Assembly: GCA_903813345.2 (NCBI GenBank)
Contig: CAIIXF020000001.1
Coordinates: 30,183,915-30,247,914 of the forward strand
Length of the DNA stretch: 64,000 nucleotides
Reading direction: 5' to 3'
From: Owenia fusiformis
Lineage: Eukaryota; Annelida; Polychaeta; Sabellida; Oweniidae
A model generated the notes under the pieces. The model did not search any database, was not told where the DNA came from, and was given only the letters and a program-made list of their open reading frames with translations. A program made the position numbers and the translations under genes. Positions 13,921-50,441 of the stretch are shown one piece after another (position 1 is the first letter of the stretch; each line of letters opens with the position of its first letter).

Positions 13921-14082
13921 ATGGTGAGCGAAAGCTACGCGAATGAACCAACTCCGTGGTACATACGAAATTACCCCGCGATGAGCTTGAAGCGCACTCG
14001 TGACGCGCCCGCGGTGACCACGAAAAGCGTTCGATTTGACCACGAAATTCGGGCGGCATGCCGACGACATGGCATGGTGTAA
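13921..14082 (+). CDS. Possible 53-codon CpG-rich ORF upstream of the zinc-finger ORF
   Basis: An ATG-initiated frame of 53 codons sits in the most CpG-rich stretch nearby (13905-14085), ending ...CRRHGMV then TAA. GTGTAAG at the end of the frame could be a splice donor that would join it to zinc-finger coding downstream, because the zinc-finger frame is +2 relative to it. I do not recognise the peptide. It could be a first exon, an upstream ORF or chance coding in a CpG patch. Confidence 0.25.
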   Translation: MVSESYANEPTPWYIRNYPAMSLKRTRDAPAVTTKSVRFDHEIRAACRRHGMV

Positions 14083-25000: not shown

Positions 25001-28000
25001 ATTGGCTTTGGTATTTGATAACACCCCTTTTTTCCAATCACAATATCCAAGTAAAGTTGCTTACTGTCTAGATGTTGCCTCTAGAGCTATTCTAATGCCA
25101 GCAGCTTGTAAAAGTGTAACAGTAAATTTTGCCATTTCCGTAAAGCGCAAGTCACACTGTGATATGTACCTAAATGTAAATAATGAGAGCCTATAAAATA
25201 CATTGTACAAGACAACTCTCCCATAAGCTATCTAGACGTGTTCCTACATGCAGTTTTTGTGCAAACTTTGAGATTTTTTTGGCAAAATGTATAAATATAT
25301 TATATAGTTTGTAGATTGAATTCATAAAAACATAATATGTTAACATTTGTAATATTTTTCATCTGTTTACAAGTTACAACTCCTTCAGAGTCACTCCCGC
25401 AAGAATGGCTGTAGAAAATTTGACATAATGTCACCACTTTTTGGTTCAACTTACGTTTGTCCCCAAGCGCGTAAGATGTTCCCTTTTAGAGGTCTCATTA
25501 TATGCCTGTCCTTAGTAGTATGCACCATCACATCATTTATGAAACTTGGAAATAGGCTGGACTCTTGCATCTAAAATAGTCAAGAAACTTATAATTGCAC
25601 CGCGCTTGAAAAATAAGTCAGGAAAATAATGATATTGCTTTAAATTGACCTAAATTTTTCACTTAAATTTTTGGAAAAACTAACTTCAGTAAACCTATAA
25701 TTCATTGTAATCTTAAGTCTTAAAAATTACAGAGCATTATTTTGAACATTTGTTACAACTGAATTTTATCATTTAATTTTAAAGGGAATCTAACTGTGTT
25801 CTTATTTGGCCTTGATCTTTATTCTTAGCACTACATCTAGAGTTCAAGAACTATCGATGAATGGCTACTTACCCATACTTCCTTACAGCAACTGCGACAT
25901 ATTCCACAATGTTTACAGAGCCAACCAGATTGGCCACACTCACACACACTGTCAATACTGGCACTGTTGATACCCTGTATGTTATGTGTCATGTGAGATG
26001 TACATCTACTGCAATAGCTACACTTCTCACGAGATTCTACCCAGTCATGGAAAGGAAGGATTCTCTGGCGACCTATGGTGCATATGAGAAATATTTTTAA
26101 CAAGCTGATCTTTAATAATTAAGTGAGTTGTGTTAAGCCTATCTGAGAAATAAGAGTGAATGTAAAGTCAATAAATATTTGGGCCAATACAAAAGTGATG
26201 TACATGTGGTGCATATGAGAAATATTTTGAATAAGCTGATCTTTAGTGTATAGTAATTAAGTGAGTTGTGTTAAGCCTATCTGAGAAGAGTGAATGTAAA
26301 ATCAATGAATATTTGGCCCAATACAAAAGTGATGTAAATATTTTGAATAAGCTGATTTTCAATAATTTCAGCCTGTTTGAGATTGTGAAGTAAATATTTT
26401 GATCACAAAGTAACAAAGTAATTTTCATTGCATTGAGAGTGACCTACGTACCTTGCACATATTTCAAGACATCTTTAGACAAAGCTTTTACATCACATTT
26501 AGGACAAGCAAGTTGTAAAGATTCTGAACGTTTTACTTCATGGTTGTAGAAAGAATGAGGAAGTCCCACTGATCCACACTCTCCCTGGCAATCCACCCCT
26601 ACCTATAACATTAAACATGTGCCGAATGTAAATAATATTATAAAATAAGGAAAGCTTTTTTTCCTGAGACTCATACAAAAATTCATCTTCATAAATATGC
26701 ATTGATCTCTGCCATTACTCGAGTCATTTCTGAATTGATTTTATTAATATTGTCAATGATATGTACACATTGACAAAATGTTCAACACCTCACAGACCAC
26801 CTTACCTTAACATGTAAGAATGGGTAGCAGTTGTTGTGATAATCCATGAGTCGCAACACTTGACTCATGACACTCCAGAAATAAGTTCTCAGACCTTCAT
26901 CTGGGTTGCTATCCGGACCAGATACTTTCTCCATAGTGTACAATTTGGTGGCCCTTGCAATTACATCTAAATAGCTGCTTGTTGTAGCTAAAAGTTAAAC
27001 GTTATTATGTGGCTATACATGAAGCTGTTGGGTTTATAAATAAAATTATTTGGATACAATTCTGGGAATTGGGTGGAAGAAGAGCTTTCTATAAGATTGA
27101 GAGAGAAGTATTCTCAAACTGCAGTGAAATTCAAAAATGGGTTGCAACGGTCTATAAGTGTAACCAATCCAGAAAAAATATACAAATTAAGCTAGATGTC
27201 AATGAAAAAAGTTACCCGACTTTTTGGAGATTATGAGTCAAAGAAAGCATTCTTGAGTTTCAAATTGACTTCTGTAATAACTTGAAACCATCTTCTAATT
27301 TATTCCACTTCCCTTTATTGATTTAATTGAGTTCAAGCATGAATGTGGTATGTCAATATGACCTCAAATACTTTCAAGTGTGAATGTGATATATCAATAT
27401 GACCTCAAATACTTACAAGCGTGAATGTGATATGTCAATATGACCTCAAATACTTACAAGCATGAATGTGATATGTCAATATGACCTCAAATACTTACAA
27501 GCATGAATATAATATGTCAATATGACCTCAAATACTTACAAGCATGAATATGATATGTCAATATGACCTCAAATACTTACAAACATAAATGTGAAATGTC
27601 AATATGACCTCAAATACTTACAAGCATGAATGTGATGAGTTGATATAACCTCAAATACATACAAGCATGAATGTGATATGAATCAATATGACCTCAAATA
27701 CTTACAAGCATGAATGTGATGTGTCACCATGACCTCCACTACTCCTATCCTGAATAAGATGCCATATCTCCAACAAAGGACCACATGATCACTGATCTTC
27801 CAGAAATCTTGGAAAAGAGTTTGAACCAGGGCAGCAGGAAGACCATGAGTGTAGCGATATCTGTAGCTTACCTGCACCTCATCCTCTCCAGGACCATCAT
27901 CCCACACGTGTGTCTGCAATATTCCAATTATGGGTGAAAATGTCCAGGTATTATTGTTTGTTGTAAGACATTTATTAAAATAAATAGCCTGTTTCAATAT

Positions 28001-31000
28001 TAATTGGTTAATTAATTGACGTTTTATAGCTTTGAATCCTCACTGACTTATGCTCCAAGAAATTCAGTTTATCAGATTAGCTTTATGATAGCTAATGCAT
28101 TGCCTGAACTTGCCCTGAAATCATTGCTTTTTACTGTTTTGACATGATTTTGTAATATCAGATATTACAAACAGGGGACAAATGTCCAGTCAACAAATAT
28201 AATTAATCATCCATTATTCCTCAATTTTATGTTCTTTCAAATACCGCTGACGCTTATGCCTAGGTCACATTTGCTCCGATTCACCGCTCGGCACCCGGGC
28301 GATTGCATATTTTATTCAAAACTGAAGACCAAATCTTAAATTTGAGGTCAGATATGAACTCCTGAGAACATGTACATGATTTTAAAAAAGTTTGGACAAT
28401 TTGAAGCAAGTTGAAATTAGTTTTGAACAAAATACTGCAATCAGCTGGGCGTTGGCAGATGAATCGGAGCAAATGTGACCAAGGCATTATTGAAGCAACT
28501 ATTCAAAAATATTATAAAATATTACAAATATGAGACAAAATGGTGAATTATGTATTTGCGTCACTCATACTATAAATGCATATAATATCAATAAATTAAG
28601 AGATGTTCCTTAAATATTTTTTTGTATGTCAGAATTTCACTTTAGTTTTCATATATGTAATCAGATTTTGATAATACTGAAAATTTAAAAAGTTATTAAA
28701 GAAAAAGTGACCCTTGAACAATTCTGTCCGGGCTACTATATTACCTTGAGTACGAGTTGTGAGAACCTGGATTCAAGTTCAATGGACCTGAAGAAAGCTT
28801 TGGGGTGTGTATGGCTGTATGGGAAGTACTCTGGTTTAGTTCTCATGCCATGTGGTGGTATACGCACCAGGATTCCAAGATGGCAGAAAGTTTGTGTCAC
28901 AAGATGGAATACCTGAAAAGAATGTATGATAGAAGTTAGCCTTGCAAAATGTATCAATACATTTTTTAAATAATTGCCAACGTTAAAAGCAAGTGACTGG
29001 AGATTTTTTTTTTTTTTTTTGTAAAAACTATATTTCAAGAATAAAACATATATACAAATATACATTATACATAGGCCTAATTACATTGTTTAATTTCTGT
29101 ACAGTTTCTCTTTTTCAAAATAAGCATGTATACTTCCAATTTTGTCTATATTGAAAATTTGTATTGCCCTCCTGGCTATTAAAACTTCTTTATAATTCTT
29201 ATACTTATTTATTCCTATAATTTGTTCAAAAGTGATATTATCAAAAAATTTCCATATATCCCTTATTTTTGTACACTCATAAAAATTATGTTTAACATTG
29301 TCAATTACATTGCAATTCTCACAAAATGAACTATCTCTAATTCTAAAACGATTTAAAATCTCATTACATGGATATATGTTGTGTAATGTTTTCCAGTGAA
29401 TAATTAAGAGTTTGGCATCTACTTTGCACTTGAATGCTCTAAGCCAAGTTGCGCATGAAATATCCTTACCGTTATACTGTAAAATCAATTTTCTTTTATC
29501 TGTACATAGTTTTCTAAAATCTGATGTTTCATAAAATGTTATCTCTTTACCATTTAAATATATTTTGAAATCATCATCCGCTTTTACATTGCCATAAAGT
29601 AATATTACATTTCTATTGATACAATTTGAAAGACCAATGTATTGTATCAGTGTCAAAGGATTCCTACCAATAATCCTAGATATTTCATCATATGTCATTA
29701 CTCTATCATTGGTTACAATATCACTTACAAAATTTATACCTTTTGCGATCCAATTTGTAAAACATATTTTATTTCCACTTATTTTTAACTTTTCATTATT
29801 CCAAATAATTGATTGGTCTGATTCAGTTTTATAATTTTGCCAAGTTTGTAAAACTTTCTTGTAAAAATGAGGTAAACCAGTATAATTATTAATTGTACTA
29901 TTGCACTTAAATACATAAAGTTCTGTTGCATATTTGCTATAGTAAAACTTTGGAAGACATCTCCAATGTCCATTACCTGGTAAAACTATCAGTTTAATCC
30001 ATTTCATAATAAATGAGACTTGCATATCATACATATCAATCATTTTCAGACCTCCATCTTTGTAATCTTGTACCATAAAATCCCTTTTAACATATTCTGG
30101 TACAGATTTTAAATCCTCTTCCTTATAATTGCCTTTGGACCATATGAACTTAAAAAACATGGTGTTCATTCTTCTTAATATGTCATCATTCAAAATAAAA
30201 CTTTGCATTAAGTACATGAATTGTGAGTGACTGGAGATAACCATGCTCGCATGTACATGTATTCAAATATAAATTAACAATATAATTGCTCTACTGCTTT
30301 CGAAGTTATCAAAAAATTGGGGAAATTTTCAATAGACATTGTGCCAGGTTTCAAGTATTTATATGTTCACATAAATTATCAACAAAATTGCTCCCTTACT
30401 TTTCAAGTTATAGCAAAACATAAAAATTTAAACAAATCAGATTTTGGACTAAATAATTACAATAAAGAGTTGTTATGACTTTGTTCTATGGGTGTTAATA
30501 GAGGTTTGACTGTACTTTAAGTTATTGAACGATTTGAAGTGAAATACAGGATATATTCTGTATTGCACTTCAAATCATTCTATAACGTTTTTATCATATG
30601 ATAAGGCCAATACATTTTACATAGGAGATAATCCCTGAGAAATATTCTGTATTCTCTGTATTGCTACTGAGATTGTCCCTTCCATACTTATATTTTCGGT
30701 ATTGCTCCGGAGATGATCAAATGGCACAAGAACTGACCAATCAGAGGGCATCCTTTACAGATCATACGATAAATGTACTTACATATGCTTTGCCTTTCCT
30801 TGACTTGAACTGCAAGATCTCATTTAGCAGTGGTTTGTTTAGAACAGCAACGTTGGGCGCCAACGCTGGGACCCTTTTGTTATTTGCATATTTTGTCTCT
30901 CCTTGGAAGTAATGAAAATCTTCAGTGAGCATACATATATATTATGAAAGTCTTATACACTGTTTTTAAGTTTTAGTTAAGCAATAGACATTTGATACAA

Positions 31001-34000
31001 AAACACAACTCATACGAAGGTCTTACAACATGAAAACTACAAGGGACCTGTCCTGTGTAATATATGAGAGATCATACAGTACTTTTACATGATACAATTT
31101 AAAAGACACAATAAAAGGAATCAGACACAACAAAAGTACTTTTTTACTTCCAACAAAGAAAGTACCAACAAAAAATTCAAAAAATGTTCAGCAGTTTTTT
31201 CTGTAGTCACTGGAATATTAAAAGTTTTCACAAATGCAATTAGAATTTTTCTAATTTCATATTTAGAAGAAATGTCACTTTTTTCTTAATCTAAAAATTT
31301 TGAGGACATGAATATATGTTATGTGCCTCAATCTGAAAATCTAGCAATCTGAAACATGTGTTACTGTTCAGGCCTGTAGCCAGGGGGCCAAAAATTATTT
31401 CAAAATCATTCAGTTTTTCACCATTCTGAGCACTTTTAAAGTTATTTTGGCCATTTTTGGATATGGGCCTGCTGTTATTACCGTACCTATATCTGCATTG
31501 GTAAGATAACCCAGGAACCATGACACATTGAAGATCACTGCTGGCTTTTCTATCTTGGAGAAGTACAGTAGGGTACCCTACAAGAACATCTACAGTCAGA
31601 AATACAGCCAACAAGTACATCATGAAAATGGTGGCCATTTTGAATTCAGTGGTTTATTTGAGGCCATTTTGAATTGAAACTTGAATTTTCTTCTCAATCT
31701 CAAACCTTTTAAGTAATTCAAGGAGAGTGGATATTGTGTTTTCACTGGCTAACTTGAAAATATCTTCTTGAGCATGTCCTATGCCTTTTTGGCATCAGCA
31801 TATAAGATTTGAACCAAATCCATCAACTGGTGTTTGAGTTATCAAAAATAACATTCTTACGAAAAATGCCTGACATATAAATTGATACTGTATGAGTGGC
31901 CACATTGGAAATTTATTCTTGGGAGAGGTTCTAAGCCCATCAAGCATCAACCAATAAAACTAGAGTCAAACCCAATATCCTGTAATTGACTTATCACCAC
32001 AGAGACATATGGACTAATGGATAGGTGGACGAATGGCTTCTCTAGTAGAACCATGGGCTTTCAATATATACATGCATATTGAATGCCCATGATAGAACTG
32101 TACCTAAATTAATTAATACAATATACACTATAATTTACTTTGTGACTCAATCTGAAGCAAGCCAGAATAAATACCACAACAGCTGCCTCTTCATCACGAA
32201 AGTAAAACCTTCTATTTCTGGATATATATTTCAATATCTGAGGTAATTACTTTAATGACTAATGCTAATTTATGTTCAAAAATACAATGCCAATTTACCT
32301 GTTTATGCTGACTAGGAAGTACTTCATACTTTATCCACTCTCTCACAGGTTCAGTTGGTGTTAAACCTAACATGCTGGTCAGTCGTATTATCACCCTTTC
32401 TTCACTTGCAACATTCACACCTAGCATTAAAATACAATAACCTTAGGTACATGTAACTCACTGAGACTTTGTATTATCCCATAATATTCCACTTTCTACC
32501 TGGGGTAGAACTTAATATAATTATGAGAAATAATGAAATATACTTAAATGTATCAAATTTTCTAATTGTTACCTTCCATTAAAATAACAATTTATTTCTC
32601 TTTTTGTAGACAGTACCATGAGCATAGATATGGACAAAATGAGAGGAGGGGTGATTGTACGCTTTTTGTGATGACATATTCAGCAAACCTGCAATACTTT
32701 TTTTCATAAATAAATCCCTAAATGAATAAGCCTATGGTATAGTAAATTGTGTGAGGCTTTATGATTTAAACCCTATACTTCCATGGAATGAGATCTACTG
32801 AAAAAGGCGCAAAGTCACCAGTGTACAAAATAAAAGTCTTACAATCGCCCACCAAAATTTAATATTTTGTCTATTTTAAGTGTATGTAATTATAAATAAT
32901 TGATGGTAGAACATTTATTAACCTGGCATAAACTTATCTCTGTCTTTGAAAAGAGCGACAACATCTTCTTCATATTTCTCAACCAATTCAACATCAGGTT
33001 TGAAAGGAGGCTTCCGATTGCCTGTCACTTTATCCGAGACCTGGAAAAATTAAAATTAATTATGGAAATAATTATTGACTCCTACATTCAGAAAAACTGA
33101 TTGTAGAGAAAAAAAACAAACTAGATAGCTTTACTGTACATGTGCATATACATACTTGTATATTATATTTGCAATCTGCTTATGACCAATTCACTTATTT
33201 TGTCTCAGTTTATACTTTGTACCTATTAGCCAAACACCATATTTTGTTCAAAACCTTTAACTAATAAATGATAGAAAGTCACATTGAGGGTAATCAATCC
33301 TTGTCAGATTCAAAACAAAAATCCCTTAAAGAGAATTCCTAATATAATTCGCTTCAAGATAATTCCTAACAAGGCATTAATATGCAAAATCTCACTACCT
33401 GCCATTTGCCACAGAATGGTGATCATAACCTTTTGAGGTCAGGCACGAAGCCAGAATTTTCCAAGGGGGGGCTCACTTTTCCAAAAAATTCTAGGGGGGT
33501 TCACTTTGGCAAATTTGGCCAAAATTCACTCAAAAATAGTAAGAATGGTGAAAAACTGCATGATTTTGAAAGAAATTTTGGCCAGGGGGGGGGGGGGGGG
33601 TTCAGCGGAACCCCCAGGACCCCCCCCCCCCCCGGCTATGGGCCTTGAAGTGGCATAATAATAACTAGATCTTGAGACTGATTTTGGTCAAAAGAGCTGA
33701 TATTTGCAACCTTGGCCAAAATCACACAGTAATTGAGTGCGGATCAAATGGATGGCATACACTACTAGATGGGAGGATGCAACAACAAGCATATTTTATC
33801 AGTTGAATATTTCTCAATTTATCAAAGTCTAAAGTAAAAATGAGTACAAGAGAGTTATTTAGTTAAATATACAACAAACTGATTACAATATAGCCCCAAA
33901 AGGGCGCTATAAAAATGTGTTGTACATACCACAGTTTCATCTGGGATTTCTGGGATTTCTTTCAGGTTGTTCCACAGTCCATTAATATCCTGAAGTTCAA

Positions 34001-37000
34001 TAGACAAATATCAGTACATATTTATTTACACTTAAACAATGTGGGTACACATTTAACTGCACCAAAATAATGTGAGCACATAAGTTGCACTCAAACTACT
34101 GTATATGGGTTTATATGATGTAATTGATTACATGATACAATATATTGAGTATTGTACAAAATTGTATGTATAACTTTTGATCCGATAATAATTTTGATAA
34201 TTTTAGCACATAATGGCATAACCAAAACATCTAAAACATAATATCTAAAACATGATACATTATATTGAAATCTTTACTTGCAGCCTTCCTCCTTTTCTGG
34301 TTATATTTCACTTATGTAGGGAAACAAACCTTTCTGTCAGTTATGCTCCTTTTATCTAGTGTATATTTGACGCAATGACAGAGCATGTCCATTTCTTGAA
34401 CTTCTACTTCACTGGAATCATTACACCTCTGGGCACAATCCATGAACCATTGGATGTCAGTAATCACTGGCTGCCTATAGGGGGCCTCTGGGAAGTACAC
34501 CAGTTGGCCCTGAAATGGACATTTGGGATAAGAAAATGCTACTGAACATATAAAAGGTGTTCTCTTTGTCATAATGATATTAAAAAATGAATTGTCAATA
34601 ATATAATACTTATATATATTATACTTAAGTATAATGAGATATTTTGACAACAATAAACCTGATATCTCAAAAGACAAAACAAAAGTAGGAGCAAGGACTG
34701 ATGGTGTAAATTAAGAGTATTATAACTTAGTGGTTTACATTGGTTCCGAAGAATAACAGATTTAGAAAAAATATTACCAATGAATAATCTTTTCAGTTGA
34801 AATTACTTAGGTTTACATACTTTACAGCCCGTGTATTTCTTTCTCTGTATTAAATGTAATCATCAATTGATTGATATCTTGTGTAAGTAATCGAAACTGA
34901 TGCATTTCATCTTTTCTTGAGACCATATTCAACATAAAAGTAGCATGTGTGCTCAGTGGAACTGATATGTGCTCATTAGAGGGAATATGGTATTAACCTT
35001 TTTGTGTAATAATTTCAGGTGTTCATCTACTTCCATATGACTGTCAGCCATTTTCAGGTGCTCCTCAATGAGGAGGTGCTGATCCACAATGCTTGGGAGG
35101 TCCTCAAGAGAGGTAAGTTTCTCCCAGACTGGGGTGAATGTTTGAAGTGAGATGGGTTGCATCACTGATGTAGGATTCATTGTTGATATAGTTTTGGTGC
35201 AACTTCTTATCATGTTCAATATGGACTGATAGCCCTGAAATAAAAATCACAATGCAGGAGTGCAGGATGGGAGCATCTTGACCTCTTACATACAAATCTT
35301 TTCTCCTTCACATAAGTTTGACTTAGCTTCTTGGGAGGTAGCTTTATCAACACTCTTTTTCTTGTGTGTTTTAAGTGTTCAGAGGTTACTTTACAGAATT
35401 AGCCTCTATACTCAGGGTAAAATGAGACTGATTTTATAGGTAAATCATTAGCAGAATCCTCTATGCAATATTCTGTTTTCGTTAAACTGTATGGGTCAAA
35501 TGGGAGCCATACAATCTGTTTTTCAAAGGACAGGAATTTAACAAAGGTATCTAATATACACACCTCTTCTCCAGTTTTCACAGGATATGAATTAATTTTC
35601 TTCTCGTCACCGTCTGAAGAAGCCTTAAACTGTTTGTAAATGGGCATCACATCAATACCCCATTGATAGATGGCAGAAGCCCATTGGAAGCAAACAGATG
35701 CTACTTGACTTTTCATTCGAAGCTAATAAACAAAAAAGAGCATGCATGCCAATTACAATTATGCATTTTAAACAATGGGACAGAAATGCACCATACTATA
35801 AAACTATTGAAAATATTTTATTAATATTATAGTCTTACAGTCTATACTACTACTACTACTACTACTACATTACATTAGCAACATAACAGTATGTGGTAAT
35901 TGGAGTGAATGATTTTGATATTTTACTGAATAAATGCTGTGTACAGTTTTTTGCTACATACATTTTTCACAGTAAGTTGCTCATCATTCATGTAAGGTTT
36001 TAATTTCCTCACAATTTTCTCTGTCAAGCTTTCCTTTAAATAGAGAAAAATACTGTTTAGTTAGTGTTACATAAATGAAAAATAACATTTTTGACCTCTT
36101 AGATATACATTTTCACATACGAAGTCTGAGACTAAAACAAGTCTGAGATAAAATATTCTCACAGTAAAATAACATCATTAGGTTTGTCTTAAATTGAGGA
36201 CAATGTTAAATGTGTTTGTGCCTTTCTCTTTCACAAATTATAATTAACAAACAAAAACAAGGCAGTGTACTGAAAGTAAGCAGACTCACCATGTACTCAT
36301 AATTCACCATTGAATTTATGAACAAATAGTTGGATAACATCTTCTTTATTTCCCTCCATTCAGGCTGAAACAAAATATTACTTTATTTCTTAATTCGAAG
36401 ATATTTATTTATTATTACTGTGCTGTTTCTTTATCTATTTGAAAGCAAAAACACCATTTTCTCTTGCAAGAAGACAAGTGTACGGTTTGATTAAACTGTA
36501 TTCGCTGTAAATTGGAACTCAACTAGAAGATGGCAACTCCACGGAGTAGCAAATCCCAACGAACACTATATAAATCATCAATCTGTACAGTCACAATGTA
36601 ATATTTACCATCTACTCTTACAGTATATGTCAAATTTCTGCTCTAGTCAGTCATTTTGAATTTTCAGAGGTGCAAATCAGAAAAACAATGCCATAATTGT
36701 GATGTACTCTGAAATTCCTTCAATTTGAGTATAATATAGCCATACTTTTAAGAGATCAGAAAATAATTGCGAAGTCCCACATAAGACGCCATTTTGAATT
36801 TTTTGAGGCCGGAATCAGAAAAATGTTACAATATTTGCAGTCTACTCTAAATTGCCTTTCATTTGAGTATAATAAAGTTATACTTCAGAAACATCTCAAA
36901 ATTAACGCAAATTCCTGTTTTGCCAATACTCCATTTACGGCCCCTGGGGTCGGGGTTAAAAACTCAGGATATATGTGAAAAAGATAGATGTTGTTAATAT

Positions 37001-40000
37001 ACTACCAAAATTTCAAATAATAATATTCATTATTTTGGTTTAAAATGAAAAACATAAGATTTTTGCGAAAAATTCCCACCATTTTTAAACTGGTGGCCAT
37101 CTTGACAAAAAAAATTCTTGCGTAAAACAATTCACCAATATACATCTTTCCGCTAAATATGAAAATAATCTGTCAACTAGTATTCGAGTTATCTTCCGGA
37201 CAGACGGACGGACGGACTGACTGACTGACTGATGGACTGACGGACAGATGGACGGACGGAGGGCTTCACTATATCCCTACAGAACTTCGTTCGTTGGGAT
37301 AATTAGCTGTAAAGAATTTGACGATGTTTCTTAGAGTTTAAATAACTTTTTATTTAAAAATATTCTAAAGTAGAATATTCGATTGAAGCTACACATGGCA
37401 ATCGTCACATCGACAAGTGTGCGGGCTAGCTAGGACTACACACAGTACCTTTAAATTGAAAAGTATCGTTACACACGACATTGATTGTAACACAGGTCTT
37501 GGTGGATTGGAGAAGGATTTGAGCTCTGTGATATCAGATTTTGATAATCCTTGAATTCCATCAATAGCTGGTGCCTTGAACACAAACAATGAGAATAAAT
37601 GGATCATGAGTACTTAAATAGATATATTACCTTTAAATTGAAAAGTATTGTTACACACGACATTGCTTGTAACACAAGTGATGGTGGGCTGGAGAAGGAT
37701 TTGAGCTCTGTGATATCAGATTTTGATAATCCTTGAATTCCATCAATAGCTGGTGCCTTGAACACAAACAACGAGAATAATTGAATCATGAATAATTTAA
37801 AAAAAAGTTTTCACTCGGGATCTAGATGGGGTGTGGGAGGTGACTCCCCCCTAAAAAGTCACAATTTTAACTTGAAATCAAAATAGATGGTTATGGTTTA
37901 TCAATAACGCATTGGATCAGACCCTAGAATTGGACTTATCCTCTGAAATTGGTCGGTATGAACCAAATGATGTTTGATTTTTGAATTTTTCTGGGGGGAG
38001 AGAACCCCCTATTCTGGCACTTGTTTGCTGGGCTCACTTAAATGCAAAATATAAAAAACATAAAAGAGTGTATAGTACAGTTCAATCATTTTTATATTGC
38101 TTTATTCATTCGGAGATATTATACAGTAATGTAATAATATATGCTTTGACTGAATGGAACAAAGCATAAACATAGTGTATGGTTAAAAAATTTAAGAAAT
38201 ATTAAATAGAACAACCCATACAAGTAGAACTATTTGTGCTACTATATCGTAACATAAAATGAGATCATATATCAAATATGGGAAAGCATTATATAATACA
38301 TATGTTTTTAAGATGTTCTCCATTAAGAGTTTAGTTCTAGAGTTTAATTCTACAAAACATTACGAATGTTTTATTCAAACATGACCGTGCTCTATTCGAA
38401 TTTCTCAACCAATCAGAATGCAGCATAGCCAATATAGAACGTTCTCTAATTCTCCATAGATGCACGACCATGCTCTATTCAATCTGCAATTTGCATTGTT
38501 TTGAGTGACGTCACATCTCAGCTGCACATCTGGGGCTCTGTCCGGGGATAGCTTGACAGCATGCGTATTCTTCCTTCATGCCCGTTTCACAGACACGGCT
38601 TTTACTAATTTTTATGTTTGAATCGGAATAAATAATGATAGGCCATTCAATATGGTGAAATTCAGCACGAGTTGGACAGAATGTTAGTACAAATGCACTC
38701 ACCTTCGGTTCGTGCTTTGTACAACATTCTGTCCAACTCGTGCTGAATTTCACCATATTGAATGGCCTATCATTATTTATTCCTTAAATTGATTCCGCAC
38801 CACACATCTTTTACTTACAGAGGGTATACAAATAATATTCAGGTATTTTCTACATATTCACATAAATCACATAAAGTTTGTTATTGTCTTTGATATGAGG
38901 TTTTAAAACATCTGAATATAATAGTCACTTACCCAATAGTTTGCATTCCAATCTTCCATTAGTTTTGCAATGTCCTCCTTTGTAATCTGTGATGTTGGAT
39001 TTTCAGAAAGATGGTGCTCCTGAACCTTTAGAGAATAAAAGACAGATATATTTTATTTAAAAAGGCCATATATGGAAAGTTTGTAAGGGTATTATGGTAA
39101 TGGGGTGATAGTAACATTATAAACCAATAGCTCGCCCATGTGAGCTTATTATAGAAATAAGGGCTCCCCAAGAGGGGGTAGTGGGGTCGCTTTTGTCACT
39201 TTTAAGATTTCAAAATTCTCACTTCATCACATTTAAAATTTACTTGTCACATTTTGTCAGATTCGTTCCTTTTTAGTCAGTCAAAGTATTTAATGCACTA
39301 AAAAGTCTGTTATGTTCCATTGTTTGATTGCTGGTTAGAATAAGTCATCTTAACGAGCATCAATTTACATTCAGAACGAATTATCTATTTTTGTCACTCT
39401 CAAAACACTTGTCAGTCCGATAAATGTGCAAAATTGTCACTTGCAAGGATTGATTTGTCACATTTGTTCATTTTTAAGTACCCCAAAGTCCCATTTAGTC
39501 CCATTTTTAGAGGCCAGGTCGCCTTATCACTTACCCCTTGGAGAGCCCCGAAATACAGGAGCACAGAGTGATAGATATCGCAATATAGGAATCAAACAGA
39601 AAACATAACAATGATAAACAAATAAAGGAATTAATATGTCATCACAATTACAAGGCATTAACACGCAAAATGTTACAGGCACCGAATGCTGAACACTAAT
39701 CGAACACCATACACAAAAAATTTGCAATCTATAACAATATGTCACCATTTCTGGTGATGACATCATAAACTTGTAAGACTCAGTTAATATTACAGAAAAT
39801 TGTAAACTTACTTGCTTGTTCATTTCATCACCCTTAGCCCACATAATACCCAATCTGGTAGCACAATCTATACATACCTCTAGAGTGTCTATATTGACAT
39901 TTGCCACAATGTATTTATTGTCAGCTTCCATTGTTTGTAACAACCTCCCAAACTGAATCTGCTCAGCAAAATTCATGTCAGCAGATCTATAATGAAAGTG

Positions 40001-43000
40001 ATATTGTTAACATTTGATATGTACATTTATATCAATTTGCACAATAAAGGAAGAGTTCACTGGTGATTTAGACAATAGAATATGGTTCAGATGAATAGGA
40101 TTGCATTCATGGCATTTGTCTGAAAATTGTTGCCAGAAGGTAGGACACATGTTAGAAGGATGGACATATGAAAGGACAGATGGTCGGAGCATTTTCATAA
40201 GCTCAACATTTGACCCAAAAAGATGGATCAAGTTCAGAAAAACATGTTCCTTTGACATTTCCTGTTCATATGATTATCACGGGTTATCTGATCATTTTGA
40301 TTTACACTTTCACTTCAGGGGGTTCCAACAAACCAACTCCCTATGGCCAAAAATTCTTTTAAAAATCATGCGGTTTTTCACCATTCTCAGTACATTTCAA
40401 GTGATTTGGGTCATTTTGGGTCAAAGATGTCAAAAGTGAACCCCGCTAGAATTTTTTAAGAAGAGAAGCCTCTTGGCAAATCCTGGCTATGGGTCTGCTC
40501 TGAATTACACATACCCTTCTTCATATTTTTCCTTTATCCTATTATTTTCCTTCTGCTGTTCTTTGAAGAGGTCCAGTAGTTCTGTCATCACTTTTCTTGT
40601 GATCTCCTCATGCTCTTTGGCATTGTCGTTAGAGTACAGAAGTAGCAATATGAAAGGGGCACCAGGGTCCTTAAATGAAAATGTGTAATTTTGATATTTG
40701 TCTAATTTGGAATTTATGTAAGTATATATTCCTATCAATTAGTCAGATTTGCTTGCAGAATCTTCAAATCAAAATATTATATTGCCACAAACCTGATGAT
40801 GGGAGGCAGTTTCAATATTCTGCATGATCCTATATGCATGCTAACTTATATTTTTAATCAATGAATATACTTACTATTGCCCAGACACTTTCCAGCTTAG
40901 AGAGAATATGGAGTTGATAGTTTAAAGCATTGCTCATCATGTCTTGTACTATTACATACACTGCATTTTCACTGATCACGGAAGGGTAGAATGACTGCAA
41001 ACAGATTGAATATATGACATCATCTTATATATTATATTGAGATAAAATGATTCCATATTTGTGAGTTGTTTGATATACATGACTTTATGGACTTATAACA
41101 TGTTATATAAAAGTAACATGTTATAATCATGAAAACTATTCCTAAATGGATTATTGAATTATACATGTAACTTATATTTTGATAGATAAAAATTCAGACA
41201 TTACCTTGATCATCTGGCATTCAAAGATATTCAGTGCCAGTTCTTCTCCTTCTTCAGTAGCCGCCACCTTGAAGTTCTTTGTGTGCAAAAGTATATTTGA
41301 TTCTTCGATCTTGGTGAATTTTTGGGATTCCAAGAAATGTGTAATGTTGAAATGCGCTCTTTCTTCCCCAAGTATAACTAATTTCCATGTATTTCTACAG
41401 TACTTTAAAATAGCTTCTTTTTCTGGAAATATAAATATAAAAATCAGAGGATGAAAACTATGCAAAAATACCAATACCATGCATAATGATATTATTGCCC
41501 ATGTAGCTATAATTGAAATTGTACAATAACCTATGGATCAAATTAATTTAATACAAGAGATTTAGATTCAGCCTGAGTAAAACCATGGACACATTGTAAA
41601 ACATTAACAGAGTTTACCTGATTTTCTTGTCTCCTTTTCATTGTCATTGTTGACCTTGGACAATAGAGTAGTGTCTAAATGTTGATCTCTAGTACATGAT
41701 ACTCTGACCAGGTCAGGACAGTTCTTCTGCAGGTGGCAAATAGAGAGTGTCGTCAATTTCACACATCCCTCCAAATTGATCTGAAAAAAATCATATGGAT
41801 TTCTAGAATATGTGTTAGCATATTTAGATTATATTATGTATCTATTCTCGAATACAAGAAACTCATAAAAATATGAGTATGATTAAGTAAGTAATAGTCT
41901 ATTATAGCTATAACTTTCCTTTAATTTTAGGTTCACAATTTTAAACCAAAGACTGCATGTAAAGCTTGTAAAATACAAAACAAAAACAGCAAACACCATG
42001 TACATGAACATACCTCTTTCAATTTAGTGAATTTTTCTGATAGTTTCTGGATTCCATAGTTGGTGATATGAGCACAGCCCATTAAGGAAATGTTGTGAAC
42101 TGTTTCATGCAATCTCCCCTTGGCAGATGCAAGGACACATAAGGCATAGTCAGTTAGCTGCTCTATCCCTGAGAAGTCCAGGGTAGCAATGTGCCTGTCT
42201 GTGTCATCTTCAATCTCAGAAATAAACTTCTGTAAAAATGTTAGTACATTATATTAATCTATAAGTAATGTATTTACAATATAAAATATTAGGAATATGA
42301 CAATATATAGCCAAGTAGTCCTCCATAAAATCATTTCTATTTTCCTGATTTGTTGTTGAAAAAATGAAATGGGGTATGTGAGTGTAATCATAAAGGTACA
42401 TATACATTATAACTATGCAAGACTACAATTGAGTTATAAGGTGACAATTTTATGCACATTCTGTCACTCTACTATACCTTGCATTTGGTGTTCATAAGCA
42501 ACCCATTTGGCTTATTAGTAATGATTATGTTATTTGTTTTTATTTGTCTGTTCCTTATGCTTAGTTTATCTGATGACGTTAGATGTTAATAAGGTACTTT
42601 CAAAAATATACTAAACAATACAATTGGACAAACAGAGTATCTTATGCATTTCTAGGAGTTTGGTATACATGTAGTAGAGTGACTGTGCTCCCAGTTAATT
42701 TCGCGGCTATTAAATTTCACGAGTTTCACTAATATAAGTACACCTACTACTATGTTTATATTGGTCAACAACACGCTACACCTTAACCTCTATTGCATTA
42801 TCATTTTTTGGTTTATTTGATCTACTAAGCCACTGTAACAGACATATTGGTTACAAACATTTTGCAAAACATGAAATGCAATGGAGTCCTAGGTAAGAAA
42901 AATTTTTCACAAATCCTTGGGGATTTGATTGAAAATTTCACAAAGATTAATTTTCGCGATTTTACCACAATCGCAAAAAGCGTGGAACTAAATAATGTTG

Positions 43001-43233
43001 TACGTGAAAAATACCAGGAATACAGTATATGAATAGAAGGTGGTTAAAAGATGAACATTGAACCTGGTATATAAATGAAATTGAATGTTATTATAATCCC
43101 TATTCTAAATAGTTTAACTTACAGAGAATGTATGAACGGGATATACATTTTGTACATCAAGGCCCTCAAAGAGACTGCCCCAATCAAGAGTCTCTCCTTG
43201 TGGATCATTTGTGTCTGCAACGCCCTCCATCAT
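16461..43233 (-). CDS. Double-Roco protein with dynein-type stalk head (37 exons, 3' incomplete)
   Basis: I read this gene exon by exon on the minus strand; every junction below keeps the frame and has GT/AG sites. Exons, 5' to 3': 43123-43233, 42014-42229, 41618-41780, 41205-41422, 40875-40994, 40515-40669, 39812-39986, 38933-39025, 37631-37756 or 37449-37574, 36290-36364, 35962-36033, 35564-35722, 34998-35234, 34330-34509, 33930-33989, 32923-33040, 32299-32420, 31487-31577, 30783-30901, 28745-28912, 27706-27913, 26806-26987, 26452-26602, 25873-26072, 25455-25570, 23512-23701, 23051-23197, 22453-22567, 21701-21814, 21290-21442, 20875-21102, 20316-20509, 19320-19556, 18951-19082, 17542-17790, 16887-17274, 16461-16626. 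The total is about 1,982 codons. The start is an ATG pair at 43228-43233 just after an in-frame TGA. Domain order: LRR, degenerate ROC, dynein-like microtubule-binding head, COR with zinc ribbon, cysteine-rich module, unknown region, LRR, ROC with P-loop. Roco proteins are GTP-regulated scaffolds; a cytoskeletal role is inferred from the stalk head. Confidence 0.88.
17899..18186. mobile_element. Small TA-target MITE in Roco intron 34
   Basis: Ends TACCACTCTAAGTCCAATTA and TAATTGAACTTAGAGTGGCA are inverted repeats with few mismatches and are flanked by TA on both sides. No coding content. It is consistent with a Tc1/mariner-type non-autonomous element. Confidence 0.7.
18195..18338. mobile_element. 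Palindromic foldback element
   Basis: TTATATAATGGTTCATTCTG at the left pairs with the GAAAGAACCATTATGTAA end at the right, and the arms continue to a centre with TTCGCTACGC. The arms are imperfect. It lies directly after the preceding MITE. Confidence 0.6.
19320..25570 (-). CDS. Roco gene exons 25-33: uncharacterised middle region
   Basis: Residues about 1174-1671. Exons 26-28 look beta-rich with short repeats of charged and hydrophobic residues (for example KLVEVKPHNELKVRNNITF and TEIEVAVNGKMFHSC); SH3-like or MIB-like folds are possible but not shown. Exons 30-32 are mixed, and exon 33 is helical and cysteine-containing (DHLCQVYPHLRSCKDHVS). I do not recognise a family. All junctions keep the frame. 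Intron 25 holds a mariner relic, intron 28 a CACTCTTAAA element, and the exon 28 acceptor a tandem array. Confidence 0.7.
19944..20195 (-). other. 83-codon open frame in Roco intron 32, shared with the element at 4813-7228
   Basis: An open frame of 83 codons with protein-like composition (RSMGVIQLQATCTIDLPIY). Exons 32 and 33 join in phase 0-0 without it, so it is not needed in the gene. Bases 19992-20091 are about 94% identical to 5049-5149. Either an exon-like piece was captured by the transposon or both copies come from a larger, unrecognised mobile gene. Confidence 0.45.
21895..22286. mobile_element. CACTCTTAAAAA-ended MITE
   Basis: CACTCTTAAAAAATATTACT at the left and AATTCATTTTTAAGAGTG at the right form terminal inverted repeats. 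The interior consists of many AAGTAATT words in both orientations. It is in intron 28 of the Roco gene. Confidence 0.7.
22567..22710. repeat. 29-base tandem repeat spanning a splice acceptor
   Basis: Five units of CACCTACAGAATAATAATGC-AAGTAAATG. On the gene strand each unit contains ...ATTCTGTAG/GTG, a copy of the acceptor of exon 28 with the first exon bases. Alternative use would add multiples of 29 bases and shift the frame. Confidence 0.85.
23734..24798 (+). mobile_element. Mariner relic with about 200-base TIRs
   Basis: CCAGGTCGTTCAATAAGTTC and its complement form the two ends, flanked by TA (23732-23733 and 24799-24800). TIRs extend about 200 bases to AAGTGCCCC.. and carry X-box 14-mers. 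The middle (24206-24472) encodes what looks like the C-terminal end of a mariner transposase: LDFAVFTRMKDQLRG, the usual DF.LF..LK..LRG after the last catalytic aspartate, and KRLCIKHEGEYF near the end. Most of the transposase is missing. Located in Roco intron 25. Confidence 0.8.
25873..26072 (-). CDS. Roco gene exon 24: second cysteine-rich module
   Basis: Residues about 1107-1173 contain CSYCSRC, then CECG, then LCKHCGICRSCC: eleven cysteines in about 50 residues, plus histidines. The spacing (CxxCxxC ... CxC ... CxxCxxCxxCC) suggests binding of two or more zinc ions. I cannot match it to a named family. It directly follows the COR zinc ribbon, so it may be a structural extension of COR or a separate binding module. 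Confidence 0.7.
26077..26335. repeat. About 130-base tandem duplication in Roco intron 23
   Basis: GTGCATATGAGAAATATTTT starts both copies (26077 and 26208). Both share GTGAGTTGTGTTAAGCCTAT and CAATACAAAAGTGATGTA. The copies differ by small indels. Confidence 0.8.
26452..35234 (-). CDS. Roco gene exons 13-23: COR domain(s) with zinc ribbon
   Basis: Residues about 562-1106. DEHLKLLHKKGQLVYFPE ... ITDIQWFMDCAQRC (exons 13-14) is the COR winged-helix signature (LH.lG.ilyF...vildPqWL). A second, similar unit, GTLLYFSKIEKPAVIFNVSW (exon 18), follows about 160 residues later, so COR-A may be duplicated. HGLPAALVQTLFQDFW ... VLCWRYGILFRIGVVEVMV (exon 21) fits COR-B (lP.glf..l.vr......cWr.Gv.l). Exon 23 ends the domain with CQGEC ... 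ACPKC, a zinc ribbon seen after COR in several animal Roco proteins. The intron after exon 19 holds a LINE. The donor of exon 21 lies in a tandem array. Confidence 0.72.
27330..27730. repeat. 41-base tandem array spanning a splice donor
   Basis: Nine units of CTTACAAGCATGAATGTGAT-ATGTCAATATGACCTCAAATA. On the gene strand each unit ends CATTCATGCTT/GTAAGT, the same as the real end of exon 21 (27706), and the last exon bases are themselves the parent unit. Seven units keep GTAAGT and one has GTATGT. The downstream phase (exon 22 needs phase 1) supports the most upstream site as the main donor. Confidence 0.88.
28257..28486. mobile_element. Harbinger-type MITE (TTA target)
   Basis: TGCCTAGGTCACATTTGCTC and its complement at the right end are inverted repeats, flanked by TTA on both sides (28254-28256, 28487-28489). 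A TWA target and these ends match the larger element at 57570-58470. No coding content. Confidence 0.75.
29005..30225 (-). mobile_element. 5'-truncated LINE (L1/Tx1-like ORF2 3' end)
   Basis: A minus-strand insertion with a 3' poly(A) (poly-T at 29005-29020) is flanked by 13-base direct repeats AGTGACTGGAGAT (28992-29004, 30226-30238). The open frame, read from 30225 down to its stop near 29090, spans about 378 codons. It matches the region after the reverse transcriptase in L1/Tx1 elements: FIWSKG, GGLKMIDM, and a terminal CENC.....H.FYEC zinc knuckle. The palm domain and endonuclease are missing. The frame is still open and the flanking repeats are perfect, so the insertion looks young. It lies in Roco intron 19. 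Confidence 0.85.
30525..30585. repeat. Short hairpin
   Basis: GAACGATTTGAAGTGAAATA and TATTGCACTTCAAATCATTC pair around an ATTCTG-type centre. Possibly a small foldback remnant; nothing suggests an RNA gene. Confidence 0.5.
31369..31471. mobile_element. Short MITE, CAGGCC ends, 5-bp TSD CTGTT
   Basis: CAGGCCTGTAGCCAGG at the left and GGATATGGGCCTG at the right, with CTGTT duplicated at 31364-31368 and 31472-31476. It sits 15 bases from the donor side of exon 18. The family resembles the larger 4813-7228 element in ends and target length. Confidence 0.75.
33440..33646. mobile_element. MITE of the GTAGCCAG family with poly-G/poly-C tracts
   Basis: CAGGCACGAAGCCAG at the left and GGCTATGGGCCTT at the right; flanks GAGGT and GAAGT look like an imperfect 5-base target duplication. 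It shares AATGGTGAAAAACTGCATGA-type sequence with 31369-31471 and 40310-40497. Tracts of G and C flank the GGTTC...GAACC pairing. Confidence 0.65.
35564..37756 (-). CDS. Roco gene exons 9-12: dynein-type microtubule-binding head
   Basis: Residues about 418-545 run collinear with the stalk head of dynein heavy chains. LSKSDITELKSF.(S/N)PP..V..(A/S)M matches the end of coiled coil 1 (typically L.k.Di.EvKs...PP..V...m.av). LKPEWREIKKMLSN..FI matches the W..AK..L....F segment. MVNYEYMESLTEKIVRKLK matches L..(F/Y)D...I.....KI. Next, LRMKSQVASVCFQWASAIYQW matches the S.A...(L/M)..W..A...Y helix leading to coiled coil 2. The whole head is present, but the long coiled coil is not. In dyneins this module binds microtubules. 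Outside dyneins it is unusual, so binding is an inference. Confidence 0.72.
35847..35873. repeat. (TAC)n microsatellite
   Basis: Eight or so TAC/CTA triplets in Roco intron 11. Simple repeat with no further signal. Confidence 0.8.
36553..37300 (-). mobile_element. ATCCCAACGAAC-ended repeat with (GACG)n tract
   Basis: ATCCCAACGAAC at the left and CGTTCGTTGGGAT at the right are inverted repeats. A GGACGGACGGAC / GACTGACTGACT tract lies at 37200-37260. The inside has CCATTTTGAATTTT-type words. It is the same family as 60088-61467, in the opposite orientation, inserted in Roco intron 9. Confidence 0.65.
37449..37574 (-). CDS. Alternative copy of stalk-head exon 9 (9b)
   Basis: A second 126-base exon with AG acceptor and GTACTG donor, phase 0-0. 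It encodes the same 42 residues as 37631-37756 except around the PP motif: SNPPRPVLQS here against SSPPSLVLQA in the other copy. The duplication extends into both flanking intron sides (for example the upstream GTTTGTGTTCAAG). Being in the same phase with intact splice sites, the two can be mutually exclusive or both included. Confidence 0.8.
38625..38783. repeat. 69-base inverted repeat
   Basis: 38625-38693 pairs almost perfectly with 38716-38783 across a 22-base loop (GGCCATTCAATATGGTGAAA and its complement are internal parts). It lies in Roco intron 8, close upstream of exon 9a in gene orientation. Probably a foldback element. Confidence 0.85.
38933..39986 (-). CDS. Roco gene exons 7-8: linker before the stalk head
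   Basis: Residues about 328-417, helical in character (MNFAEQIQFGRLLQTMEA, then TKEDIAKLMEDWNANYW). They lie between the degenerate ROC and the dynein-like segment, where the end of coiled coil 1 would be in a dynein. No heptad pattern is obvious to me. Exon 7 enters in phase 2 and both exons end in phase 0. Confidence 0.65.
40310..40497. mobile_element. MITE of the GTAGCCAG family, third copy
   Basis: Shares AAAATCATGCGGTTTTTCAC-type core and a GGCTATGGGTCTG end with the copies at 31369 and 33440. The left end is less clear and no target duplication is visible. It lies between Roco exons 6 and 7. Confidence 0.55.
40515..41422 (-). CDS. Roco gene exons 4-6: degenerate ROC (pseudo-GTPase)
   Basis: Residues about 164-327 follow the ROC order. 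A first strand, WKLVILG, stands where the P-loop belongs but continues EERAHFNI instead of GxxxxGK(S/T). LNIFECQMIK stands in the WDFGGQ position (G3). SENAVYVIVQDM matches the strand after G3. FILLLLYSNDNAKE stands where the THxD/NKxD motif (G4) is expected. The fold appears kept while nucleotide-binding residues are gone. Exon boundaries (phase 1-0, 0-0, 0-2) keep the frame, so this is not a decayed gene but a domain evolved away from GTP binding. That it is inactive is inferred. Confidence 0.7.
41618..43233 (-). CDS. Roco gene exons 1-3: N-terminus and AMN1-like LRRs
   Basis: Residues 1-37 (exon 1) are acidic, beginning MMEGVADTNDPQG. Residues 38-163 (exons 2-3) show cysteine-type leucine-rich repeats such as LMGCAHITNYGIQKLSEK and INLEGCVKLTTLSICHLQKN, followed by NCPDLVRVSC. 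This style (GC.xIT..G...L) is that of AMN1/F-box LRRs rather than the LRRs found later in the same protein. LRRs commonly precede ROC in Roco proteins. Exon 1 ends in a consensus GTAAGT donor. Confidence 0.8.
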
Positions 43234-47559: not shown

Positions 47560-48305
47560 AATATAATTAGGGGAGGGCTATTTGAAGTAGTTTTTGGTCT
47601 CAGGCGCGACCCAGGGCTGTTGTCTTAAGGACATTTCGTTGAAAATGAGCCATTCGGCTGATAATTGGTAAGAGTTTGCGATCTTATAATGTATAACTGT
47701 TACTCAGACACATATTTTGACACGATTCTGTTGGAAATAAGCTTTGAACCGAGAGATATTCACGATTGATATGCACATTTTTGATTGTGCCATTGCTTTT
47801 CTATTGCACAACCCATGTATTGATAGAAGAAACATTAATAATACAGATTGGTTTACCTTCAATACATGGCAGACACTACATATCGGTCTATTAATACCAG
47901 TTTGTGCCTTAAATAGTTTTATATTTCCATCCACGGCCTGGAGCCTGGGTGTGTTTGTCTCTTATGTGTATGCTTGTGCATGGACTTCAAATCACTAGCA
48001 GAATTTAACATGATGCAAACTCGACATTATAACTCATGCTGTAACATTTTGACTTCGCTGGAAAACAATAGGAATTATTTTTCTTGCCAATCAATCATGA
48101 ATCACAATCAAAGTTTCAGAATGATCAATCAGGCAATGATCCAAATCAAGTTATAACATTATATAATATTCAGCAAGAAGTCCGGTAGAAATACAGAATA
48201 TTTAAACATCAAAGCTGAAAGTTAAAAGCGAATCTGTCAATTTTCTGTCTGCAAAAGAGCGTCCCAAGAGCGTTTACATTTGACACAATAACAGACTGAG
48301 GCTTT

Positions 48306-50441
48306 ACAAATAAAATGCTTAAACTGGTGGCAGATTCACTTGATGCAGAACTTCATAAACTTTTTAAACTCATTCTTACTAAAGGCAAATTTCCTAATTG
48401 TTGGAAGCAGGGCATTATTGTCCCCATTTTCAAAAATAAATCCTCAAAAGTTGACCCAGGGAACTATCGGCCAGTTTGCCTTTTAAGTAATATTTCCAAA
48501 ATTTTTGAACGCGTCATATATGATTCAATATTCAAACATGTGTCATCTAACAATCTTTTGTATCAGAACCAATCTGGGTTTTTACCTGGGCATGACACTC
48601 AGAAACAACTTGTATCTATTGTAAATATGATTACTTCAAATTTTGACCATAATATTTCTACTAGAGGGATCTTTCTTGATATTGAGGGTGCGTTTGACGG
48701 CGTCCCCCACTACTCACTTCTGCATAAGCTAAAATCATACGGTATCTGTGAGAACATTATTAATCTGATAGGGTCCTACCTTAATAACAGAAAATTAAAA
48801 GTTAGGGTGAATGGTACAACTTCAATAAATTCAGATACTCTATATGACAATATTGATGGGACAATGGAAGGGATTCTAGGGACAGGAGGAAGGGATTTAG
48901 GGGGGTTTGACAAAGGAGTAATAAATTGTGGGGTTCCTCAAGGGTCAATATTAGGTCCCCTGTTTTTCTTACTTTATATCAATGACCTAGCCGATGCAGT
49001 TTTAAATAGCACTCTGTACCTTTATGCTGATGATAGCTCAATTTTTCTACCTGTCAAAAAGGAGGACTCAGTTCATGAAACTTATCTAAAACTCCAAAGC
49101 GATGTTAATAGAATAGAGATCTGGTCAAAGACTTGGAAATTAAAATTTAAGACAAGTAAAAGTAAGGAAGTGTTTTTCCAGTCCAAAACTAGAACTCCAA
49201 TTGCTCAAATTCCTATTGTGTTAAATGGTGACTCTATCCCTTTCACCAATAGTCACAAACATCTTGGTCTTATTTTAGACAAGGCTTTAAACTTTGAAGA
49301 ACACATTAACAGTATAATTGTTAAATGTAACAGGATGTTGAACCCACTTATGGCACTAAAACATAACTTAAGATCACAACATCTAGAGAAGATTTATATG
49401 GCATTTATACTACCTCACTTAGAATATGGGAATATCATTTTTGATTGTGCAAACTTAAATTTACTTTCTAAATTGGATAGTATTCAGTATAGGGCAGCAT
49501 TGATTGTCAGTGGATGTACCCAAGGTACAAATGCAACCAAAGTCACCTCATGCTTAGGTTGGAGGTCCCTAGGGGCCAGGAGGGATGAAAAGAAACTATT
49601 GTTTACTTATGACGTCATAAATAACAACAAAATGCCTTCCTATGTAAACCAGGCCTTTTCTTTATATAGAAATCATAATGTAATGAATAATGGAAATCGG
49701 TTACGCAGAGTCAGATCTTTTAGAATACCAGCTCACTGTAAGGCCAAGATCAGAAAGGGTACAGTGATATCTTGTATAACATCATGGGAGAAACTGCCTG
49801 GTGATTTGAAAGCTATCCAATCTAGAAATTGTTTTAAGTTTAACCTGAGGAAACATATTCAAAATTCTAAAATAAAGCTACCTACTCCAAAATTGCATCT
49901 TGATAGGAAGACTGAATCAACTTTGAATAAGACTCGATGTGACTTTATTTTTAGGCAGCATTTATTCACACATAATTTTAGAAACATTGATATTCCAAGT
50001 TGTAATTGTGGCTTTAGATCACAGTCTACAATGCACCTATTATTACACTGCCCTCTATTCATTGTTCAGCGAAACTTGTTTTTGGAAGAACTTGGGGAAC
50101 TGCCATCCTTTGATTTAACCGTGTTTGGTCAACTCAGACAGCAAGACAGGGTAAATTATTTGTTATACGGTGATTGCTCATTATCGTATCTGACAAATCA
50201 GAAAATTGTTGAAATGACTGCAGGTTTTCTGCAGTTAATTGTTACTATTTTAAATGAGTAAGTTTTTATTTTTATATACTTTTCTGCATTACCGAGTTGA
50301 TCCTTAAATCTCATTGCAACTTCACTTTACATTATATAAATTCTTGACTACCAGGGCCAATAATGCATTGCTTCGGCCCTTGCTGTGTTTGTAATTTGTT
50401 TTGTTTAAATGATAATAAAAAAACTTTAAACCTAAAAAAAA
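48306..50441 (+). mobile_element. 5'-truncated LINE (CR1/Jockey-like) with open RT frame
   Basis: The insertion is flanked by 11-base direct repeats ACTGAGGCTTT (48295-48305 and 50442-50452) and ends in an A-rich tail (AAACCTAAAAAAA). The frame 48315-50261 (648 codons) lacks the endonuclease but keeps most of the reverse transcriptase. It shows GNYRPVCLLS (about residue 49), FLDIEGAFD (120) with the first catalytic aspartate, CGVPQGSILGPLFF (205), YADD (237), and a C-terminal CNCG...H..LHCP knuckle. About 30 glycine-rich residues sit between KVRVNG and CGVPQGS, where relatives have about ten. The frame has no stops, so the copy is young. Confidence 0.88.

Follow-up and report, generated by a model that had tools for sequence, protein, structure and literature searches.

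A dynein stalk-head module predicted between the Roc-like and COR-like regions of a Roco-like gene in Owenia fusiformis

Gene structure at the locus

We analysed a stretch of 64,000 nucleotides (nt) from the annelid Owenia fusiformis (assembly GCA_903813345.2, contig CAIIXF020000001.1, positions 30,183,915 to 30,247,914 of the forward strand), referred to here as the window; all positions below are counted from its first letter. On its minus strand, from 43233 to 25065, a hand-built gene model of 26 exons reads through 1224 codons with no stop and with consistent phases, starting at an ATG ATG immediately past an in-frame TGA. Within this model, exons homologous to the stalk head of dynein heavy chains lie in frame inside a gene that otherwise resembles a Roco protein. 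Because the splice sites were chosen by hand to preserve the frame, the open frame is in part a circular argument for the model. At the provisional 3′ end an in-frame TAA follows exon 24, and by eye the phases do not match those of the exons at about 24.8 kb and 23.7 kb. A Pfam scan of the raw reading frames (25001-39999, minus strand, two of the three frames) returned no families; it provides no evidence either way, because the head exons themselves were also missed.

The head is encoded within exons 6 to 10. Exon 6 (38933..39025, residues 365-395, phase 0-0) supplies a linker or flank ahead of the head. Exon 7, which carries the end of CC1, helix 1 (H1), the H1-H2 loop and H2, is present in two copies, denoted E7a (37631..37756, containing SFSSPPSLVLQA; Pfam MT and phmmer) and E7b (37449..37574, containing SFSNPPRPVLQS; repeat comparison and Pfam MT). 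Exon 8 (36290..36364) covers the H3 region, exon 9 (35962..36033) the middle helices, and exon 10 (35564..35722) H6 and the CC2 stub with its proline, followed by a linker; all three were identified by Pfam MT and phmmer. A first-pass annotation had described the landmarks of the dynein head in four consecutive minus-strand exons at 35564-37756; the landmarks are present there, spread over five exons rather than four since the first of them exists twice. It had also numbered the head as residues 418-545, which our model corrects to about 396-520.

Scored with a matrix built from the other hand-picked exons, the donors of the head exons ranked in the upper 0.5-9.4% of 1000 GT dinucleotides on the same strand, and their acceptors lay within the top 1.4-9.4% among 998 AG dinucleotides. 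Exons 6-10 together measure 525 nt and are in phase 0 at both ends; they therefore constitute a cassette whose gain or skipping leaves the reading frame intact, an arrangement compatible with exon shuffling. The same property would suit a different gene structure, one in which splicing of the Roco exons bypasses the head exons, these being part of a dynein-derived gene that is separate or nested, and the model was drawn from DNA alone with hand-chosen splice sites. Against such an error stand the common strand, the matching phases, splice sites that are fair to good, and the failure of Pfam to recognise any further dynein domain in the spliced model; we regard it as quite improbable. A single mRNA carrying all parts is the structure that we infer from the locus.

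Two repeats lie in the introns around the head exons. The intron before them contains a perfect inverted repeat of 61 nt, its arms separated by 37 nt (38625-38783), and the intron between E7b and exon 8 contains two 126-nt copies that are 71% alike (36652-36915).

Match of the head exons to the dynein stalk head

The head exons matched the Pfam family MT (PF12777) with 34.9 bits (E = 1.1e-8) when a spliced 669-residue piece of the model was searched, above the curated cut-off of 24 bits. As an isolated 124-residue sequence, the head scored 38.5 bits (E = 8.9e-10) with E7a and 35.7 bits (E = 6.6e-9) with E7b, and the match extended over positions 96-207 of the 344 in the profile (94-207 in the search of the spliced model). 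When the head was exactly reversed, MT was not matched, and with exon 7 removed, exons 8-10 yielded a weak match below the cut-off (E = 0.0025). Two further Pfam families, NTP_transf_7 and FliP, matched the head weakly, below their own cut-offs, and were set aside.

A phmmer search of the PDB returned 66 distinct sequences at E<=1, with DNAH6 as the top chain (E = 2.5e-13). Nearly all of the best 60 of these 66 are named dyneins, heavy chains or AAA+ chains; other names, for example MKIAA0325, CFAP57 or radial spoke head protein 9 homolog, occur for a small number of the same 60. With E7b, the head matched the AAA+ chain 8glv_Cn, which we take to be an I1-type Chlamydomonas dynein, at E = 1.6e-12 and the cytoplasmic dynein 3j6p at E = 3.5e-10. 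Identities in the alignments amounted to 30/105 residues for DNAH6, 40/110 for 8glv_Cn and 30/98 for the cytoplasmic head of 3j6p. Collectively, these data confirm that the exons are homologous to the dynein stalk head, as the first-pass annotation had proposed from its landmarks.

The same annotation had described the module as devoid of the AAA+ ring, and this holds for our model: in overlapping pieces of the spliced sequence (residues 1-395, 110-778 and 540-1224, the pieces used for all Pfam searches of the host below) Pfam recognised no dynein motor domain, and neither an AAA+ ring nor the linker nor the long coiled-coil stalk of a heavy chain was found over residues 1-1224. Apart from E7b, a tblastn search of the window with the 669-residue piece as query detected no further significant copy of the head. 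Among viral contigs, tblastn revealed no relatives.

Duplication of the first head exon

E7a and E7b, of 126 nt each, lie within 182-nt copies arranged head to tail, E7b downstream, with 56 nt between the two exons. The copies differ at 7 of 126 nt in the exon and at 10 of 56 nt in the flanks (Fisher p = 0.013). Four residues are changed (S/N, S/R, L/P and A/S) and one codon differs silently; the residue changes fall at codons 23-31, that is, in the H1-H2 loop and the start of H2. A spacer of 56 nt may be too short for both copies to be spliced into the same transcript (steric exclusion). We prefer a reading in which E7a and E7b would be used in a mutually exclusive manner. The donor of E7b is the weakest, with a score of 4.9 as compared with a minimum of 5.7 among the reference donors, and counts against the explanation that we favour below.

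Stalk stubs and tubulin-contact positions

The head retains H1 to H6 together with short stubs of the stalk helices that reach one proline on each side. Counting from the proline on the CC1 side, 18 residues lead to the basic residue closing the TELK/VEVR/SEIR segment of H1, as compared with 22 in mouse dynein-1 and in DNAH6; from the H6 tryptophan to the CC2-side proline there are 14 residues here and 17 in mouse dynein-1. Both stubs are about one turn shorter, and their pairing could thus be kept. We identify the two prolines with the universally conserved ones that have been used to excise the dynein head (PMC6629372); the same work describes the head as permanently primed for binding, with mainly H1 shifting when it binds.

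Alignment to mouse dynein places lysines (K407 and K444) at the positions of mouse K3299 and R3337, and Asn449, Met489 and Lys485 at those of R3342, R3382 and E3378, respectively. Of these mouse positions, K3299 has a role in tubulin contact, and the other four are presumed contact positions. The latter three substitutions, which alter two arginines and one glutamate of the presumed interface, together with a CC1 stub 4 residues and a CC2 stub 3 residues below the length in mouse dynein, favour an alternative in which a genuine dynein head was grafted and has since lost microtubule binding, so that it would serve as a structural spacer or bind another ligand. This alternative has to accommodate the two further basic positions that stay lysine, the residues R488 and K490 that flank one changed arginine, and the better conservation of the duplicated exon than of its flanks; on balance we consider it rather unlikely. 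Binding of the head to tubulin and microtubules would, on our preferred reading, be likely but not assured.

The host protein

The exons upstream of the head, all on the minus strand, begin with N1, the probable start exon (43123..43233, residues 1-37). N2 (42014..42229, residues 38-109) and E1 (41618..41780, residues 110-164) encode segments that resemble leucine-rich repeats (LRRs) by eye, E1 holding the last of them; Pfam LRR matches are weak here (E 0.045-0.1). The Roc-like domain was assigned from the gene model and profile alignment. It starts in E2 (41205..41422), continues past the switch II position in E3 (40875..40994) and through a strand and the next helix in E4 (40515..40669), and according to the model ends in E5 (39878..39986, residues 328-364), whose 3′ phase is 0. 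Downstream of the head, the COR-like region starts in E11 (34998..35234; gene model and Pfam search), has its COR-A-like core in E12 (34330..34509; GQLVYFPEAPYRQPVITDIQWFMD) and, in the model, extends over E13-E17 (33989-33930, 33040-32923, 32420-32299, 31577-31487 and 30901-30783). A COR-B-like segment occupies E18-E19 (28912-28745 and 27913-27706), and Cys-rich segments followed by a further tail make up E20-E24 (26987-26806, 26602-26452, 26072-25873, 25570-25455 and 25169-25065).

The Cys-rich exons E21-E22 (25873-26602; ACPKCD; CSYCSRC...CECGQSGWLCKHCGICRSC) resemble a zinc ribbon by eye. E21 aligns with the post-COR segment of bacterial Roco proteins, at a score of only -0.8 bits.

We scored the model with two sets of Roco profiles. 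The smaller comprised 10 sequences, LRRK2 and 9 plasmid Roco proteins. The larger drew on bacterial Roco sequences, for which at least 577 contig stretches matched, 546 of them encode relatives and 80 loci were kept; its 89 sequences are LRRK2 and 88 of 89 loci, L085 having been left out by the motif or X filter. The 10-sequence Roc profile scored 9.4 bits on the full model, over positions 3-154 of 162, as compared with 4.8 bits for the best of 200 shuffled sequences and the reversed sequence. At the expected place, the COR-A family of Pfam matched E12 with 20.5 bits (E = 4.8e-4). The 89-sequence profile of COR plus tail gave 6.4 bits, a score exceeded by none of 500 shuffles nor by the reversed sequence.

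Other scores weigh against a Roco assignment. The COR-A match lies below the Pfam cut-off of 35.3 bits, and Pfam Roc did not match the spliced model. The 89-sequence Roc profile scored 4.3 bits, a value surpassed by 2 of 500 shuffles, and the joint Roc and COR profile of that set 4.7 bits, surpassed by 1 of 500. With the 10-sequence COR and joint profiles the model did not rise above the shuffles, and hhalign with the small profiles produced nothing significant (Roc E 0.073, COR E 0.14). The COR-plus-tail score splits into 3.5 bits for the COR-B piece and -0.8 bits for the tail piece. A phmmer search of the PDB with the host sequence minus the head yielded no Roco protein at E<=10, and one unrelated chain at E = 0.57.

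The nucleotide-binding motifs of the Roc-like domain are lost. The P-loop position reads GEERAHFNIT and the switch II position FECQMIK, in place of GxxxxGKS/T and DxxG; the Roc-like domain is therefore at best a pseudo-GTPase. The switch II region is the most conserved part of Roco proteins, according to PMC6337361.

The weakness and inconsistency of these Roc and COR scores, and the missing nucleotide motifs, would also be expected if the host were another LRR-bearing protein and not a Roco protein. However, Roc-like, COR-A-like and COR-B-like segments follow one another in Roco order, each recognised separately by a weak match, and the next exon chain downstream contains LRRs and an intact Roc-type P-loop, and we judge a non-Roco host improbable. 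A Roco-like host, at best a pseudo-GTPase, is moderately supported by the predicted protein. The insertion of a motor-less microtubule-binding module between ROC and COR, as suggested by the first-pass annotation, is likewise supported as a predicted arrangement: the head lies in frame between the Roc-like and COR-like regions of one open model of 1224 codons, although the Roc and COR matches are weak and the nucleotide motifs gone.

Neighbouring sequences

Downstream of the gene, a chain of 12 hand-picked exons on the minus strand (23701-16461) encodes LRRs (LRR_14, E = 2.7e-12), with an intact Roc-type P-loop, GLGGAGKT, at the end of the chain; on the exon of this P-loop the Roc profile scored 10.3 bits, corresponding to E = 0.06 among 2370 reading frames. 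The remainder of its Roc domain was not found in the window. The first gene and this chain showed no significant similarity (best E 0.59). The chain may be a tandem Roco gene, or the first gene may continue in it.

Between E24 and this chain lies an element (23732-24800) with 207-nt terminal inverted repeats that are 91% alike, which we presume, from its resemblance, to be mariner-like. An intron of the model harbours a retroelement fragment (29093-30262, minus strand; zf-RVT, E = 6e-6, just below the cut-off). On the plus strand, the window further contains a reverse-transcriptase reading frame of the long interspersed nuclear element type (48300-50258; RVT_1, E = 7.9e-30) and a C2H2 zinc-finger reading frame (14040-14984) with 10 matched fingers and near-identical repeat units. 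The introns, the dynein homology and these two neighbours of LINE and zinc-finger type point to an animal gene.

The retroelement fragment and the mariner-like element, together with the degenerate Roc motifs, raise the prospect that the gene is decaying or unexpressed. Its 1224 codons run without a stop, and both of these insertions lie outside the exons; we consider decay very improbable.

Discussion

We know of no description of the dynein stalk head outside dyneins. In the open-licence literature searched we found no Roco protein carrying it, and unnamed database records may exist; dynein is not mentioned in two Roco reviews (PMC6337361, PMC4104024). The nearest literature matches concern LRRK1 with dynein-2 transport, and She1. 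A mussel study naming the MT Pfam family deals with gill axonemal dyneins (PMC5549309) and was set aside.

The module shares with the heads of dynein heavy chains an alignment over the whole head, the PP after H1, the tryptophan of H6 and a proline on each stub, and with DNAH6 the lack of an insert between H2 and H3. It differs from a heavy chain in that no motor domain is recognised, only stubs of the stalk are left and some tubulin-contact positions are changed. The host follows the order of the group 1 non-kinase Roco proteins with LRR, Roc and COR (LRR-like, Roc-like, COR-A-like, COR-B-like; PMC6337361). It departs from them in a Roc without the P-loop Lys/Ser and the switch II DxxG, in the dynein head between Roc and COR, and in weak profile support.

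Two further systems invite comparison. According to PMC9758056, LRRK2 reaches microtubules via basic residues within its own Roc GTPase, and they are not bound by LRRK1. Like LRRK2, the Owenia protein would be a Roco protein associated with microtubules, as predicted here from its sequence; unlike LRRK2, it would bind them through a borrowed dynein module, and its model contains no recognised kinase. The SRS-MTBD laboratory fusions (PMC6629372) likewise set a dynein head, cut at the conserved prolines, on a foreign scaffold. The present case would be a natural one, placed between two domains rather than on a synthetic coiled coil.

Taken together, we favour, with moderate confidence, an explanation in which a Roco-like gene acquired a dynein head by exon shuffling and its product acts as a motor-free tether. 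The host would be a divergent non-kinase Roco-like gene comprising a short LRR, a Roc-like pseudo-GTPase, COR-A-like and COR-B-like segments and a Cys-rich tail, and the 525-nt phase 0-0 cassette encoding the head would have been shuffled in between Roc and COR. If the head folds as predicted, the most likely role of the module would be that of a nucleotide-independent, motor-free tether keeping a Roco scaffold on microtubules, and the two versions of exon 7 would tune or switch its microtubule contact; the protein would dimerise through COR. A bolder proposal is that the gene represents a new class of Roco pseudo-GTPases that grip microtubules without a motor, with mutually exclusive exon-7 copies switching tubulin affinity and with Roc-COR movement acting on the short stubs in the role that the AAA+ ring has in dynein; we regard this proposal as speculative and doubtful.

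Provided that the gene yields a protein with the predicted fold, Owenia would possess a motor-free microtubule anchor. If this is true, a natural non-motor copy of the dynein head would offer a test of the head's own action and of how its affinity depends on the length and register of the stalk, and Roco proteins would have a second route to microtubules, in addition to the one under study for LRRK2 in Parkinson's disease.

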